This document shows positions 3,538-33,439 of a stretch of DNA of 33,439 bases, piece by piece. Both the position numbers and the translations under genes were made by a program. Under the pieces are notes generated by a model. That model saw only the letters and a list, made by a program, of their open reading frames with translations. It did not search any database and was not told the origin of the DNA. This DNA is from a virus: the IMG/VR virus record IMGVR_UViG_3300032241_002993, positions 1-33,439 of that record; one strand, written 5' to 3'. Numbering within the stretch: the first letter of the stretch is position 1; the number at the start of each line of letters is the position of its first letter.

Positions 3538-6500
3538 CTAAAAAGTGCCTCCGTCTACTCCACCGTAAGCGGGTAGATTGCTTACAATTTGCAATACTTG
3601 ACCATTTGATCCCACAGCAAGTGCAGTAAGGGCTGATGTTCCGCCTGATCCATATACCAATGATCCAGATGCTAGTGTATTTAATCCAGTACCGCCAGAG
3701 CCCACACCCAATGATGTTGCAAGTGACAGAGTGTTTGCAGTGATATTTACATTGACTGTAGAATTGGCTGTAATCTGTACACCAGTCTGAGTAGATGTAA
3801 CACCCAAGAAAGACAACGGCATGAGCGTGGTTGTTGCACCAATCGTTGTACCAAATGGTGTAGTATTGGCAGGATACGTCGGATTTGCAATTTGATTGTT
3901 AGAAACAAATAGCGAGTATGAATTAGAAGATGCGATACGAGCCAAGCCATAAAATCCAGTGTAGTATGCGTTAGCTGTTCCAACAGAGCTCGTACCTGTC
4001 GCTGTCTGAGACATGATCAAGTTGGCAGCGTTAACTGTCGTGATAAATGTATTGGCTGGAATATTTAGACCTGTGATCAACTCACCGACATAGAAGCCAG
4101 CAGTTGAAGTCATCTGAATATTAGCAGAACCTGATGTGGTATTTGCTGTAATATTCGTCGCTGTTTGAATAGGTGCACTTGAAATAAACCCAGAGTCAAT
4201 AGAATCTGCAGTGACGTTAAATGCCTGTCCGTTTGGTGCAATATAGTTCGGGCTATTTTCATCAGCCAATCCAATGATATTATCATTGATGTTTAGATTG
4301 GTTGTGTTGATTGTTGTGAGCGTACCTTGTACGTACAAGTTACCAGAGACTGTAGCATTTTGTACTGTAAGATTAGCAGAAGTTGCAGAGACGTTGCCGC
4401 CAGTAAATGCAAGAACTGTGCTATTAACATTGAATCCATACTGTGTAGTAATGGAATTAACGTTGATTGTCGTATTGCCAGTGGTATTGGCGAGATTAAG
4501 ACTGACTGCCTGCGTAACTGTGCTATTACCTGCGACAAATCCAGATGATGATACATTAACTGTTGGTACAGAAGAACTACCTGTTACAGTATGAACTGCA
4601 GCATTAACAACACCTGTTGAGTTTGCTACGAATACGCCCGCAGTATTAGCAATGACGTTAGACGATGCAATATTTGCTGAGGTTGTAACAAACAATGTAC
4701 CTGTATTGACCTGACCTGATAGGTTGGCATAAGTACCTGTCAAGTTTGCAGCTACAGTTGTGAACGAGCCATTGACGGCAGATACTGTATTGGTGTATAC
4801 AGTACCTGTTGCATTAATAGTAGTTGTGTTAACTGTTGTGAACGAGCCATTAACAGCAGATACTGTATTGGTGTATACAGTACCTGTTGCATTAATAGTG
4901 GTTGTATTAACTGTTGTGAAGGAACCATTTGTTGCAGAAATTGTATTGGTATAGACAGTTGCTGTTGCATTAAGTGTAGTGACATTGGCGGTTGTTGTAA
5001 CGATTGCAGAGCTGTTGACAACCGTGGTACCTACGATCAATCCGTTAGAATACAAATTGGCGACTGTTGCGCCACCTGTACCATTGGCGACAGAGATATA
5101 AGGAACGCCAGTATTTGTCTGTAATGTAAATGTAGGTGCACCAGTAACTGTGCTGTTACCGTATGTGATACCTGCTGTACTATTTGAAGCAAGTGTCAGT
5201 GTGGGTGCAGTGGTTGTGTTACCAGAAATTGTAAATGACGTCTGGCTAACATATGAGTTACCTGACAAGAATCCATTTGCTTGTGCGTTACCTGAAAGTG
5301 TTAGATTACCTGCAGTGGTCAACTGCATCTGTTGTGAGCCGTTGGTATAGAACGATAGTGGCAAATATGTGCCTGTGCCGTTGATACCTGAAACGAGCTG
5401 TACGTCTGTAGATCCGTTGGTAGCAATTAGAATCTTACTGGCATTTGTTGGATTAGAGCTATTTGCTGCTTGCCAGCTTGCTGCACCAGATGTACCGTTG
5501 GGCAGAGCATAAATGCCTGTTGATCCATTAAGGGTTGACGTAATAAAGTTTGATCTGCTATTGACTGTGGTGTTCGAAAAATCGCCCACAAAAAGCGTAT
5601 TGGTATTCATTACAATGTTGGCATTGAACGTTTCTACTGCGTTCCAAGTATATGCAACACTGTTTACAGATACCCAATAGACGTTGCCTGTGCCGTTAGA
5701 AGCAAGGAACTGACCTGCTGTACCCTGCGCTCCTGTGGAGTCAATGAGGCGTGATCCAGAGCTAAGTGTTAGATTGGCGCCTGAAGGCAGACCCACATTA
5801 CCTGTTGCAGTAACAAGAGCAGCGCTGACTGCAGTGCTATTAACGACTGAGGTACCAACAACTAGACCATTTGAATACAGATTGGCGACTGTTGCCCCAC
5901 CTGTACCATTAGCGACCGTGATGTACGGCACACCTGTATTGGTTTGAAGAGCAATTGTAGGAGCACCTGTGATAGTGCTATTACCGTATACAATGCCTGT
6001 CGTTGAGTTAGAGGATATCGTTAGTGTAGGCGCTGTGGTTGTATTCCCAGCAACTACAAATGATGTGTTGGTGATAGATACGTTTGAGGCAACGTTGATA
6101 TACCCACCAGTAACAGCAAACGTATTAGCAACTGTAATGACATTGGTGAATGTCCAGTTGTTGGCTGCGATCTGTGCGCCAGTTAGACCTGATGCGGCGG
6201 CTGCCCAATATGGTGAGCCTGTTGAACCGTTTGAGTATAGAACGTATCCTGCAGTCCCATTGCCTCCGTTAGCATTAAGCGGAATGCCGGAGATCGTAAC
6301 CTGAGTTATATTGGCAATAAAGTTTGTGCTGACAGAAAAGGAGTTGCCAGAAACTGTGTTTGCCTGAATAGAAGTTGCACCACTAAATGTAATGGTGTTT
6401 GTAAATGTTTGTGTGTTAGTCCAGGTATATTGAGCAGCGACGTTAGTTGCACCAGATGCAACCTTACCTGCAACATAAGAAACGATTGCTTGTGTCGTGG

Positions 6501-6903
6501 CAAGTTCATTACCTGATCCACCACCAGATCCATTTGCACCAAGAATAGTTGCTGACGTTGAGTTTGAAATTGAGGTAATGAGAACGTTAGCAAAGCTACC
6601 AGATGCAACAGAAGCAGTGATAGCCAATCCTGAAGTTAGCGTATTTGAAATGAATGAGTTGCCGTCTACAACGACTGTAGCGTTTGCGGCAAGCGTACCA
6701 GGAGTCGTGAAGTTTTGTAGATAAGCGTACTTAGCACCGCCAATAGCAAATCCCGCAGTACCTACGCCAGTTTGTGCACCAATATATAGTGTATTACCTG
6801 TAGACGATGCATTATAAGAATACCCAAGCTCACCAGCATTGAGTGTAGTACCCGGAGTAAGTGAAGTATTACTTCTACGGATCTGTACAATTGTATTTGA
6901 CAT
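3538..6903 (-). CDS. Giant repetitive tail-fibre-like protein
   Basis: The protein has 1121 residues. The N-terminus (MSNTIVQIRRSNTSLTPG, GELGYSYN, NTLYIGAQ) matches the attachment domain of marine T4-like fibres. The body is extremely rich in Asn, Thr, Ser and Gly. It contains two copies of a 70-residue module (GNTTTAPTLTISSNST... to NLYSNGLVVG at about 283-354, and again at about 559-631) and three tandem 26-residue units at about 639-716. Around residues 870-985 there is a motif common in such fibres (NDNIIGLADENSPNY, later YTGFYGLARI), interrupted by an ITGLNIPANTFITTV...IMSQTATG segment. It ends GGVDGGTF. It shares one base with the upstream 82-residue gene. It probably forms a trimeric elongated fibre; this is inference from composition and repeats. 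Confidence 0.8.
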   Translation of the reverse strand: MSNTIVQIRRSNTSLTPGTTLNAGELGYSYNASSTGNTLYIGAQTGVGTAGFAIGGAKYAYLQNFTTPGTLAANATVVVDGNSFISNTLTSGLAITASVASGSFANVLITSISNSTSATILGANGSGGGSGNELATTQAIVSYVAGKVASGATNVAAQYTWTNTQTFTNTITFSGATSIQANTVSGNSFSVSTNFIANITQVTISGIPLNANGGNGTAGYVLYSNGSTGSPYWAAAASGLTGAQIAANNWTFTNVITVANTFAVTGGYINVASNVSITNTSFVVAGNTTTAPTLTISSNSTTGIVYGNSTITGAPTIALQTNTGVPYITVANGTGGATVANLYSNGLVVGTSVVNSTAVSAALVTATGNVGLPSGANLTLSSGSRLIDSTGAQGTAGQFLASNGTGNVYWVSVNSVAYTWNAVETFNANIVMNTNTLFVGDFSNTTVNSRSNFITSTLNGSTGIYALPNGTSGAASWQAANSSNPTNASKILIATNGSTDVQLVSGINGTGTYLPLSFYTNGSQQMQLTTAGNLTLSGNAQANGFLSGNSYVSQTSFTISGNTTTAPTLTLASNSTAGITYGNSTVTGAPTFTLQTNTGVPYISVANGTGGATVANLYSNGLIVGTTVVNSSAIVTTTANVTTLNATATVYTNTISATNGSFTTVNTTTINATGTVYTNTVSAVNGSFTTVNTTTINATGTVYTNTVSAVNGSFTTVAANLTGTYANLSGQVNTGTLFVTTSANIASSNVIANTAGVFVANSTGVVNAAVHTVTGSSSVPTVNVSSSGFVAGNSTVTQAVSLNLANTTGNTTINVNSITTQYGFNVNSTVLAFTGGNVSATSANLTVQNATVSGNLYVQGTLTTINTTNLNINDNIIGLADENSPNYIAPNGQAFNVTADSIDSGFISSAPIQTATNITANTTSGSANIQMTSTAGFYVGELITGLNIPANTFITTVNAANLIMSQTATGTSSVGTANAYYTGFYGLARIASSNSYSLFVSNNQIANPTYPANTTPFGTTIGATTTLMPLSFLGVTSTQTGVQITANSTVNVNITANTLSLATSLGVGSGGTGLNTLASGSLVYGSGGTSALTALAVGSNGQVLQIVSNLPAYGGVDGGTF
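4757..4990. repeat. Three tandem 78-bp repeats inside the fibre gene
   Basis: Units begin at 4757, 4835 and 4913. The first two differ at only 4 of 78 positions, while the third is clearly more diverged. Each encodes 26 residues of the form TVNTTTINATGTVYTNTVSA plus VNGSFT on the minus strand. The near-identity of two units against one diverged unit indicates a recent duplication within the fibre shaft. Confidence 0.9.
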
Positions 6904-29238: not shown

Positions 29239-29997
29239 ATGGCAATACAGACACAACAACCTTCAGAAGGATTTAGCATTAGTGAGTTTCGAAGTAATGT
29301 CCTGCAGAATGGATATCTAAAGCCTAGTCTATATCTTGTGAATTTTTCACCTGCTGCAAAGGGATTCATTGGGCGTGATTTATTTTTCTATACTGATACA
29401 CTCGCTATTCCTGCAGTAGATCTTGCGACACAAACCATTTATCGTTACGGATATGGACCTGAAGAGCAAGTAGCACTTCGTCCGATATTTCAACCCATGA
29501 CTATTGACTTCATGGTGCAAGCATCTGCACAAAATATATTGACTGAAGCGCTTAATTACATGACTGGAGTTTCAGCATTCATGAATTACAACAGTATGGT
29601 TGATCCTAACGGATTGCCCACTTATGGTGGAAGTGGCGGACCATACGAAATGGCTTATAAGAATGATTATAAGTTTGATCTTGCAGTATACATGTACAAT
29701 GATATTGGTACACAACTTCTAACATACACCTTTAGAGATTGTCTTGCAAAAACAGTGGGAGGACTTTCTCTTTCTTGGGCATCAACCGATCAATATATAA
29801 AGTCCAGTGTTACCTTTGTCTATACAGATTATACGTTAACTACTGAAGGAGTATCATCTGGTGTATCTTCATCATCGACAACAACTGTACCTGAAACTAT
29901 CCAAGATATGATGAATACCGGAGTTGCAAATACAGCATTATTAAATACTACACCTGATCTTAGCGGATTGACCCCACCTAGTTTCAATTTGGGTTGA
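29239..29997 (+). CDS. Tail-tube-fold protein, gp54/gp19-like
   Basis: The protein has 252 residues. The pattern of tube-fold proteins is visible: N-terminal FSISEFRSNVLQNGYLKPSL, YLVNFS, then LFFYTDTLAIPAVDL with IYRYGYGPEEQVALRPIFQ, PMTIDFMVQAS, and the last strands (YKFDLAVYMYNDIGTQLLTY, FRDCLAKTVGGLSLSWAS). gp54 (the tube/baseplate junction) and gp19 (the tube subunit) share this fold. The length, longer than gp19, and the presence of gp48 close by favour a gp54-like role. The C-terminal 40 residues are a Ser/Thr-rich, probably flexible tail. It is followed by a 27-base gap with a strong AGGAG for gp26. Confidence 0.7.
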   Translation: MAIQTQQPSEGFSISEFRSNVLQNGYLKPSLYLVNFSPAAKGFIGRDLFFYTDTLAIPAVDLATQTIYRYGYGPEEQVALRPIFQPMTIDFMVQASAQNILTEALNYMTGVSAFMNYNSMVDPNGLPTYGGSGGPYEMAYKNDYKFDLAVYMYNDIGTQLLTYTFRDCLAKTVGGLSLSWASTDQYIKSSVTFVYTDYTLTTEGVSSGVSSSSTTTVPETIQDMMNTGVANTALLNTTPDLSGLTPPSFNLG

Positions 29998-30024: not shown

Positions 30025-30744
30025 ATGGCTTTGCCTCGTATTAAAGTTCCTCTTTTTGATGTGACTGTACCGTCTACACAAAAAGATGCCAAGTTTCGTC
30101 CATTCCTTGTTAAAGAAGAAAAGATTCTTCTAATCGCACAGGCAGGCGGAACACGTAAAGAGATGATCAATGCACTTAAGCAGATTGTCAATAACTGCGT
30201 TGTTTACGCTGATGGTAGCGATCTAGATGTAGAATCGCTTCCAACATTTGATCTAGAATACTTGTTTATCAAGATTCGTGCCAAATCAGTTGAGAACATT
30301 GTCAAGTTAAAGTATATCGATCATGAAGATGAAAAGACATATGAATTTGAAGTGAATCTGGATGAGCTTGAGATTCAAAAGAATCCTAGCCATACTAATA
30401 AAATTACAGTCAATGATGATATTGGCATTTTGATGAAGTATCCAACTGCAGCGACAGTCGCAAAGTTAACAAATGACATGCCGTCTGCAGAAATGGCTTC
30501 AACGATGGTCAGAGAGTGTATCGATAAGATTTATGATACTGATACTGTGTATATCGCTAAAGAATCTACACCAAAAGAACTTGATGAGTTTATCGACTCT
30601 CTAAGTGTAAAGGCATTTGAAGAAATCCAAAAGTTCTTTGAAACTATGCCAAAACTATACCACAAGATCGAATACAAAAACTCAATGGGGACGGATAGAG
30701 TCATCGAACTCACGACAGTTGACGATTTTTTTACGTTGGGCTAA
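30025..30744 (+). CDS. 26: gp26-like baseplate hub/tail assembly protein
   Basis: The protein has 239 residues (T4 gp26: 208). It shows the family pattern: ALPRIKVPLFDVTVPSTQKD, KFRPFLVKEEKILLIAQ, then MINALKQIVNNCVVYADGSD, LPTFDLEYLFIKIRAKSV, and a C-terminal acidic region ending DDFFTLG. T4 gp26 acts in hub assembly. By position just before the tape measure it also resembles lambda-type G chaperones. The end of the gene contains TTTTTTT (30726-30732), and the -1 frame remains open past the stop into the gp51-like tail, so a longer fused form of 293 residues is likely. Confidence 0.85.
   Translation: MALPRIKVPLFDVTVPSTQKDAKFRPFLVKEEKILLIAQAGGTRKEMINALKQIVNNCVVYADGSDLDVESLPTFDLEYLFIKIRAKSVENIVKLKYIDHEDEKTYEFEVNLDELEIQKNPSHTNKITVNDDIGILMKYPTAATVAKLTNDMPSAEMASTMVRECIDKIYDTDTVYIAKESTPKELDEFIDSLSVKAFEEIQKFFETMPKLYHKIEYKNSMGTDRVIELTTVDDFFTLG
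30726..30732 (+). promoter_or_regulatory. Slippery heptamer for -1 frameshift
   Basis: Seven T's are arranged as T TTT TTT in the gp26 reading frame (codons 30727-30729 and 30730-30732). This is a perfect X XXY YYZ slippery site. After a -1 slip, translation would continue from 30732 with no stop through 30902. The zero frame ends only four codons later (TAA 30742-30744). No strong downstream stem or nearby Shine-Dalgarno stimulator is apparent by eye. Confidence 0.65.
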
Positions 30745-30905
30745 TTCACAACACATTAAATAATTACTATGCTACGTTGTTCTCAATGTCATACCATTAT
30801 CATTATTCTGTAGAAGATCTTGAAAATTTGATTCCATTTGAAAGAGACTTGTACGTAGAGATGGTAAAGAAAAATATAGAAGAGCAACAGAAAGAGAACA
30901 ATTAA
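30732..30905 (+). CDS. gp51-like frameshift extension of gp26
   Basis: Entered by a -1 slip at 30726-30732, this frame encodes 57 residues: YVGLIHNTLNNYYATLFS, then MSYHYHYSVEDLENLIPFER and DLYVEMVKKNIEEQQKENN. The peptide is coherent and the sequence before the internal ATG (30786) is as protein-like as that after it. The internal ATG could give a separate 39-residue product, but no Shine-Dalgarno precedes it. The SVEDLENLIPFERDLYV pattern resembles the second part of tail assembly chaperones of T4-like phages (gp51-type; analogous to lambda T). The stop overlaps the tape-measure ATG by one base (TAATG). Confidence 0.6.
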   Translation, partial: YVGLIHNTLNNYYATLFSMSYHYHYSVEDLENLIPFERDLYVEMVKKNIEEQQKENN

Positions 30906-33439
30906 TGGCTAGTATCATCGGAGATCTTGCTAAAGGACTTGCAAAAAGCGCTATTTCAAAGCGTCTTGATGATTCTGAAAAAGATAATACTGATAAACCC
31001 AGCACCACTTCTCAATCTGGTGGATTAGCCGCAGTAACAAATAAAACAAAAGCAAGTCAGCCCTTTGAACCATTGCAAAGGGCTATTGCTGAAGCTGCTG
31101 GCGTTAAGTTTAAAGGACTTGGTGCTACAGGACCCGACAGCAGCGGGAAATTCATTAGTCGCCAACAAGTAGATTCAACGATTAAAAATAGCCCGTTCAC
31201 TGCTATTTTAAAACGACTCACTGATGTTGAAGAAAAAGTTTCTCTCGTAGATGCACGCTTATCTGCGAGCGTTACTAGCATCCTTGCTGATCTTTCGCAA
31301 ACAAATAGAATGCTTGCTGGACTTCAAAAGACACTAGTGGGGCAACTTGATCTACAAAAGAAAATGTATGAAGCTCAGCAAATAAAAGAGCATGAAGAAG
31401 AAGAAAAAGATCAAAAGCCCGGCATGTTGGGAAAAGGAGTAGATAGAATAAAAGAAGCTGCCAGTGGCATTTTGGGGTCAATACTCACAACAATGTTTGC
31501 GCTGCTTGTTCCATTTCTTGCAAAACGATTTGGAAGTATTTCTGGAGCTGGAATTGCGTCAGCGACTCTCGGACGAGATATTACTCGAATTACCAATCTA
31601 GGTAAAGAAAAATTACAAGGTGGAGTAAAATCGGCTGAAGAAGAGCTCAGAAATGCAAAACTACAAAAAGAAGCGGCTGAGGTTCAAAAGGCACGTGCTT
31701 TACGTGAAAAAGAAGTCGCTCAAATTGATAAAGAAACTGCTCTTCAGCGCGGAAAAGACGCAAAGAAAGCTGAAGCAAGATATCAGAAGCTTGCACAAGC
31801 GGGGAAGCCAGGCACTGCTGTTCGCCAACTAGTTGCAGAACCCGGTGTTGCAGGTCAAAGGATTGAACGGGCAGCAGCAGGTGAGCAAGTTGCGACAGCG
31901 ACCAGAAAAGAAGCTGCAGCTGTAAAGAAAATTGGAACCGCAGAACGAGTTTCAGCTGCTGCTACAAAAAGAATTGCAGCCGCTGGTCCGTTGATCAAAA
32001 AGGCTCAAAAAGCACTTACCCTCTTTGAGCCTATTCTAAACTTCATCAAAAAGTATGGAACCAAATTAAAAGTTGTAGGATGGATTCTCACCTTAATAGA
32101 TCCTCTATATTCTGGATTAAAAGCAATTGCTGCTGAAAATATGAGCGATGAAGCTGTTAGAACGTCCTTTGGTGCATCCAGAGAAGATCTTTGGAAAAAG
32201 TTTAGACGCGATTTGGTTCGTGTCGGCGGAGCTCTCGTAGTTACACTTGCAGTTGATTCTGCACTGGCGCTAATTCCGTTTATCGGACCTGTACTTGCAC
32301 TTGTAGCATCTCTCACAGGTATCACAACGGATCTTGGATTGTATATTGGCGAAAAGCTTGCTGAGATCGTTTGTGATGATAAGGATGTCCTCACTGTTAC
32401 TAAAGAGATATATGAAGATGCAAAGAAGCGTGCCGCCTCTACAGTTAAAAAGGTTGCATCAAGTGCTGTAAATGCTGCTAAGGCTGCAGGCGGCACTGTT
32501 ATGGGGTGGTTCTCGTCAAAGAAGACCGCGGATGCCAGTAAAGCAGCAGGCCCTGGAGTAGCACCTGCGACTCCTGTAGCGGCGGCTGCTAAGCCTGCTG
32601 CTATGGGCAAAGGCGGTAAGTTTGCTGGAGGAGGAGCATCAGGAAGCTGGAATATGCCCAGCAAGCCTACTGCAACAGGCAAACCTGGTAAAGAGGCTGC
32701 TGCTGCATCTGCAGGAGGATATGCAGATCTTCGTAGACAATTTAATGAATTGGGTATCACAGATGTCTTTACACAAAATGCACTTCTTGCAAACATCAAT
32801 AAAGAATCTGGATTTAAACTTCATAGTGAAGACATAGCAGGATGGGGTAGAACAGCCAATGATAGAATTCGCAAATACTTTGGATCAAGAGTGTCAAAGT
32901 ATTCTGATTCTGAACTAGATGAGATAAAGAAAGATCCTGTAAGATTTGCCGAGACCGTTTATGGATATGAAACCAAAATAGGCAGAGGCATGGGTAATGA
33001 CAAGCCTGGCGACGGATACAAATATATTGGTCGTGGATATATTCAAATCACAGGTAAGAACAATTATGCCGCGATAGGTAAAAAGATCGGCGTTGATTTG
33101 GTCAATAATCCTGAACTCGTTAACGATCCTAAATATGCAGCGAAAGCCACTGCAGCATTTATCAACATGGCTATGGGTGGACAACTATCAAAAGGATTTA
33201 GTAGTCAAGCAGAAGCGAATCGTGCGGTAACTCAAGCAATCGGAGGTCCCACACTTAATCTAGACAAAGGCGCCGGCGCAGAACTTCTTGCTAAGGTCAA
33301 CAACTTCGATCCTGGAGCAAGTCCTGGCGGCGGCGGAGAGGCATCAGGCGGAAAAGGCGGGAAGGGAGCACAAATGCTTGCAAGCACAGGATCAAAGGCT
33401 CCACCTCCTGCACCCTCTAGAGGAGGCGCTGCTGCAAGC
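30905..33439 (+). CDS. Tape-measure-like protein with GH19 domain, 3' end outside window
   Basis: The frame is open for 845 codons from ATG 30905-30907 to the right edge. The N-terminal 180 residues are helical and coiled-coil-like (LADLSQTNRMLAGLQKTLVG). Hydrophobic segments lie at about 189-208 (ILGSILTTMFALLVPFLAKR) and 440-480 (VGGALVVTLAVDSALALIPF onward), with long Ala/Lys/Glu-rich helices between, as in tail tape measures. Residues about 610-770 form a GH19 chitinase/lysozyme-type domain: NINKESGF with E634 as probable catalytic acid, then GDGYKYIGRGYIQITG at 702-717. Gly/Ala/Pro linkers flank it. Its position after the gp26 frameshift pair fits the G-GT-H order of tailed phages. T4's own tape measure is gp29 (590 residues). 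Confidence 0.75.
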   Translation, partial: MASIIGDLAKGLAKSAISKRLDDSEKDNTDKPSTTSQSGGLAAVTNKTKASQPFEPLQRAIAEAAGVKFKGLGATGPDSSGKFISRQQVDSTIKNSPFTAILKRLTDVEEKVSLVDARLSASVTSILADLSQTNRMLAGLQKTLVGQLDLQKKMYEAQQIKEHEEEEKDQKPGMLGKGVDRIKEAASGILGSILTTMFALLVPFLAKRFGSISGAGIASATLGRDITRITNLGKEKLQGGVKSAEEELRNAKLQKEAAEVQKARALREKEVAQIDKETALQRGKDAKKAEARYQKLAQAGKPGTAVRQLVAEPGVAGQRIERAAAGEQVATATRKEAAAVKKIGTAERVSAAATKRIAAAGPLIKKAQKALTLFEPILNFIKKYGTKLKVVGWILTLIDPLYSGLKAIAAENMSDEAVRTSFGASREDLWKKFRRDLVRVGGALVVTLAVDSALALIPFIGPVLALVASLTGITTDLGLYIGEKLAEIVCDDKDVLTVTKEIYEDAKKRAASTVKKVASSAVNAAKAAGGTVMGWFSSKKTADASKAAGPGVAPATPVAAAAKPAAMGKGGKFAGGGASGSWNMPSKPTATGKPGKEAAAASAGGYADLRRQFNELGITDVFTQNALLANINKESGFKLHSEDIAGWGRTANDRIRKYFGSRVSKYSDSELDEIKKDPVRFAETVYGYETKIGRGMGNDKPGDGYKYIGRGYIQITGKNNYAAIGKKIGVDLVNNPELVNDPKYAAKATAAFINMAMGGQLSKGFSSQAEANRAVTQAIGGPTLNLDKGAGAELLAKVNNFDPGASPGGGGEASGGKGGKGAQMLASTGSKAPPPAPSRGGAAAS

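Follow-up and report, generated by a model that had tools for sequence, protein, structure and literature searches.

The G/GT frameshift mechanism of long-tailed phages has been reviewed and is described as widely conserved "except T4" (PMC5009743). The locus described here, by contrast, comes from a T4-like phage. It lies in the window, the whole stretch of 33,439 nt that was analyzed (positions 1 to 33,439 of IMG/VR record IMGVR_UViG_3300032241_002993), and it resembles gpG/gpGT of lambda in two respects: a short product and a -1 fusion would come from one gene with a slip site near its 3' end, and that gene sits between the tail-tube and tape-measure positions. Sequence homology with gpG/gpGT is undetectable, and the heptamer of window-type genes (T_TTT_TTY) differs from that of lambda, as do the proportions of the predicted proteins, with a domain of about 235 aa and a tail of about 57 aa. 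The T part of lambda is larger than the tail in the window, and the next gene in lambda overlaps the end of the -1 ORF, as it does in the window.

The second close system is that of the T4 hub assembly chaperones gp26 and gp51. The short form predicted for the window is co-linear with gp26 and the predicted fusion with gp51, and all belong to PF12322; in T4, however, the two proteins are encoded by separate genes and a slip site is absent. Assembly of T4 needs gp51, a protein of unknown function that is missing from the particle (PMC3004832). In cyanophages, the ORF annotated as "gp51 / baseplate hub assembly catalyst" (phrog_634) is the same -1 ORF as that of the window, but the records annotate it as a free-standing gene, and those examined contain no frameshift fusion. 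An earlier proposal of G/GT in a T-even phage is found in Citrobacter phage Moon, where a "tape measure chaperone, GT-like fusion" is annotated at gp27/gp28 (L279:46607-48001). Moon also has gp26 and gp51, two PF12322 copies, and its annotation competes with the assignment to gp26/gp51. Searches of the accessible literature returned no prior description of a gp26/gp51 frameshift.

The gp26 gene and its -1 frame

The gp26-like product of the window is a member of PF12322 (T4_baseplate; E = 1.2e-58, 198.9 bits versus a curated cut-off of 24.5). It also matches phrog_150 (E = 2.8e-65), and its AlphaFold2 model has a pLDDT of 89. The 3' end of the gene reads GAC GAT TTT TTT ACG TTG GGC TAA. An earlier note on this DNA, made from the sequence alone, had pointed to an in-frame T TTT TTT at this end, and direct reading confirms it: the run is a heptamer of the form X_XXY_YYZ in the 0-frame register, and three sense codons separate it from the stop (Table 1). 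The -1 frame, closed upstream by a TGA (30720-30722), is open from position 30723 as far as a TAA at 30903-30905. Because it opens just past the TGA, a tail encoded in this frame can only begin at the slip site. The 57 open codons and the peptides quoted in the note were recovered on reading, with the stop at 30905, and the two lengths it gave, 239 and 293 residues, are those of the predicted products, the fusion comprising 234 + 59 aa. The note was also correct that the internal ATG of the -1 ORF, at 30786, lacks a Shine-Dalgarno sequence; the duplex energy there is +1.2 kcal/mol, as compared to -7.3 kcal/mol at the gp26 start.

Table 1. Features of the gp26 locus and its neighbors, in window coordinates
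Feature	Position	Strand	Basis
Tail-tube-like gene, upstream	29239..29997	+	phrog_45 tail tube, E = 2.1e-21
gp26-like gene, encoding the short, G-like form (239 aa, unshifted)	30025..30744	+	PF12322, phrog_150, AlphaFold2
-1 frame ORF, putative T-like extension, 57 codons after the slip-site FF	30723..30905	+	phrog_634, dN/dS, gp51 match
Slippery heptamer T_TTT_TTT (7-T run) in the gp26 frame	30726..30732	+	direct reading, relatives, frozen silent sites
Region of the relatives' stem, degraded in the window (about 5/9 pairs)	30733..30815	+	pair counting
gp26 stop TAA, bypassed in the -1 frame	30742..30744	+	sequence reading
Next gene, tape-measure position, runs off the window	30905..33439	+	position

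Judged from these sequence features and from those of relatives, the gp26 gene very probably makes a short and a long protein by programmed -1 ribosomal frameshifting on T_TTT_TTT. In the proposed mechanism, most ribosomes would terminate at 30744 to give the 239-aa gp26, the short form, and a minority would slip by -1 on the heptamer to give the 293-aa fusion with a gp51-type helical tail, the long form. The rate of frameshifting here would presumably be high enough to be useful to the phage.

Conservation of the slip site and of the -1 frame

An initial scan of viral contigs found NNT TTT TTY and an open -1 frame in every relative with a readable gene end. Further scans and isolate genomes brought the full set to 160 gene clusters at 90% identity, and T_TTT_TT(T/C) occupies the equivalent place in 143 of them (84 TTC, 59 TTT). 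The remaining 17 clusters comprise three Ackermannviridae-like genes and 14 from T-even phages (genes 26 and 51 of seven genomes). In all 143 clusters with the gene layout of the window, the heptamer lies 0-8 codons before the gp26 stop, and the -1 frame stays open for 50-74 codons beyond that stop, versus a median of 5 for the +1 frame. Alignment with related phages had been suggested in the note as a check, and both the slippery run and the open -1 frame are retained throughout (143/143). This uniformity also bears on the idea that a base was lost from the T-run during assembly, splitting one true ORF. Some methods do err at homopolymer runs, but a single register in 143 clusters, many isolates among them, and a 0-frame stop conserved 0-8 codons on contradict an assembly error, to which we give practically no weight.

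The -1 ORF is present without the heptamer in three Ackermannviridae-like genomes of the main set and in three more genomes, of Ackermannviridae, that were read individually. PF12322 genes with a -1 ORF but no slippery heptamer are those of L090, L272, L273, and L274, and in Kuttervirus and Taipeivirus the junction has not even an ATG.

The codons of the heptamer are fixed at the nucleotide level. Elsewhere in these genes, FF is written as T_TTT_TTY in 9 of 140 dipeptides, whereas at the 3' end all 143 are written in this way. The residue preceding FF varies (D, S, N, A, or T), and the third base of its codon is T in all cases. Across 67 independent pairs, neither the first Phe codon nor the preceding T shows a silent difference (0/67 each), as compared to background rates of 33.5% and 32% for the two sites (P about 1e-12 per site); in 11 of these pairs the preceding amino acid itself differs and the T is retained. 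In Rhizobium phage AF3, the sequence is T_TTT_TTG: the second Phe is replaced by Leu, yet a slip site is retained and the -1 frame is open. The heptamer and the -1 ORF are thus conserved beyond codon preference and relatedness, and chance is excluded. A C-terminal FF kept for the sake of the protein, with the T-run and open -1 frame being incidental, is a reading that could appeal to T4 gp26, which also ends with FF. There the dipeptide is written GAG TTC TTT, which is not a slip site, and T-even genes in general use other codons for it. Together with the scarcity of T_TTT_TTY at other FF dipeptides, the frozen silent sites, and the selection on the -1 frame described below, this renders such a reading vanishingly improbable.

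Among 59 independent pairs of relatives, the -1 frame has a dN/dS of 0.09-0.11. The value is 0.09 from the 0-frame stop to the usual first ATG and likewise 0.09 in the core, showing that selection acts at the protein level on the -1 frame, including the stretch ahead of any ATG. The extension matches phrog_634 with E = 1.3e-17, and no Pfam family matched it. These values do not suit the reading of the -1 ORF as an independent small gene ("gp51") that has its own start codon and is translated by reinitiation after gp26. Public records of S-PM2, P-SSM4, S-RIM8, and phiN3 annotate the ORF in that way, and the Ackermannviridae hold it without a heptamer. Moreover, 42 of 140 relatives have a start codon no more than 6 nt from the gp26 stop, from which some separately started tail could arise. 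However, an ATG before the core motif is missing in 14 of 140 relatives, and ATG, GTG, and TTG are all missing in three. Shine-Dalgarno sequences at the best internal ATG are weak, with a median of -2.2 kcal/mol versus -6.3 kcal/mol for gp26. A separate gene would also leave the frozen silent T sites unexplained, and T4 gp51 has the tail and a gp26-like domain in one covalent chain. We therefore consider independent initiation improbable as the source of the tail and favor frameshifting.

Downstream of the slip site, the RNA of relatives tends to fold. Over 140 loci compared with shuffles, the 70 nt 3' of the heptamer have a mean folding z of -2.35, as compared to -0.06 upstream. A helix exceeds the 95th percentile of shuffles in 47% of loci, and its commonest start is 7 nt past the slip site. 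In the group to which the window belongs, pairing reaches 91% in a 9-bp stem located 7 nt past the heptamer, versus 20-35% when the stem is slid, and direct counting finds compensatory changes in it (14 double-change cells). RNAalifold on A2 predicted zero pairs, though direct counting favors a long-loop stem, and nothing in Rfam matched. The stem has been lost from the window and from L002, the relative closest to it, and the downstream sequence of the window folds no better than shuffles (z of +0.73). Many relatives thus have a putative stimulatory structure at suitable spacing, whereas none was found in the window. The structures in relatives help to distinguish the ribosome from the polymerase as the agent of slippage, which would yield an identical fusion product in either case. 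A T-run is a possible slip site for RNA polymerase; nevertheless, most relatives have just 6 T, the fixed NNT TTT TTY register is needless for a polymerase, and a stem about 7 nt downstream has the spacing of ribosomal frameshifting. Transcriptional slippage is accordingly rated as less probable still than a separate gene, and ribosomal frameshifting remains the preferred reading.

Relation to T4 gp26 and gp51

T4 gp26 and gp51 both belong to PF12322, and profile comparisons link all three proteins. Window-type gp26 matches T4-like gp26 (E of 4e-19) and residues 13-202 of gp51 (E of 4e-13), and T4-like gp26 matches gp51 (E of 6e-17). The extension aligns in hhalign with residues 200-251 of T4-like gp51 (E = 9.5e-8), and its profile gave no match to T4-like gp26. 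With the phrog_634 match, this profile check upholds the description of the tail as gp51-like in the earlier note. In predicted models the order of elements is similar, and gp51 has three extra C-terminal helices beyond the point at which gp26 ends. By these sequence comparisons, T4 gp26 and gp51 are paralogues, gp26 being equivalent to the predicted unshifted product and gp51 to the predicted fusion encoded in one frame. The note was right that the two are separate genes in T4; its equation of gp51 with the tail alone needs revision, as gp51 is a full gp26 paralogue plus the tail.

The slip site and a second gene copy are inversely related. Two PF12322 genes occur in 8 of 24 genomes, all of them T-even, and no slip site is present where the gene ends were read. 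The other 16 genomes have one PF12322 gene, with a slip site in 14; the two exceptions are Ackermannviridae. The mechanism is supported by the slip site in register, the selection on the -1 frame, the co-linearity with gp51, and this inverse relation. T-even phages would obtain the equivalent pair from two paralogues, gene 26 for the short form and gene 51 for the long one, and this would account for the listing of T4 as lacking G/GT frameshifting. The two genes are divergent in T4 and tandem in RB43. A weak match of gp26 to phrog_1140 had suggested gp28 as a third T4 paralogue; this was rejected, as gp28 matches only its own families.

A gene tree sets the single-copy genes apart from genes 26 and 51 of T-even phages (99/97). 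The tree is compatible with duplication of a frameshift gene but leaves the root unplaced, and the direction of change is therefore argued from parsimony. The ancestor of the T4 superfamily probably had one gene that made a chaperone pair by -1 frameshifting, which T-even phages later duplicated, fixing gp26 as the short form and gp51 as the long form in frame. Our data indicate that the predicted frameshift is conserved in most members of the T4 superfamily, which would use G/GT-type frameshifting that T4 itself would have replaced by gene duplication. Nature would here offer an example of recoding exchanged for two paralogous genes. It would also correct the annotation of gp26/gp51 in many records of single-gene (cyanophage-type) phages.

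Neighboring genes and the chaperone role

The gene pair lies between a tail-tube-like gene and the tape-measure position (Table 1). The product of the downstream gene is presumably the tape measure, judged from its position. In relatives, tape-measure PHROGs match the immediate downstream neighbor in a KVP40-like phage and, in phiN3, the gene two places downstream. The downstream product of the window also contains a lysozyme/chitinase domain of the GH19 family (PF00182, E = 4.4e-9). The stop of the -1 ORF and the ATG of the next gene overlap as TAATG (30903-30907), and 99 of 140 relatives have a next-gene start that overlaps the -1 stop or lies no more than 10 nt from it. Synthesis of the tape measure may consequently be coupled to ribosomes that have frameshifted.

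The position of the gene, its predicted short and long products, and what is known of T4 gp51 point to a chaperone pair of the G/GT type, and the two products may act as such during tail assembly. The common domain would hold the tape-measure protein, and the tail would bring in the tail tube or hub. Profile searches gave no significant sequence match to known tail-chaperone families, no sequence relative was found in the PDB, and Foldseek returned no significant match there; the PDB match listed with the best probability is the HK97 tail assembly chaperone 2ob9, which is very weak (probability of 0.28, E of 2.3). Of the lambda-type G/GT system put forward in the note, the -1 frameshift is thus well supported, and the chaperone role is suggested by analogy, with no family match and a very weak fold match. 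It gives gp51, an essential T4 protein, a testable role. Elsewhere in the window, tandem 78-nt repeats (2.9 copies, 4757-4980) lie inside a large minus-strand ORF (3538-6903).
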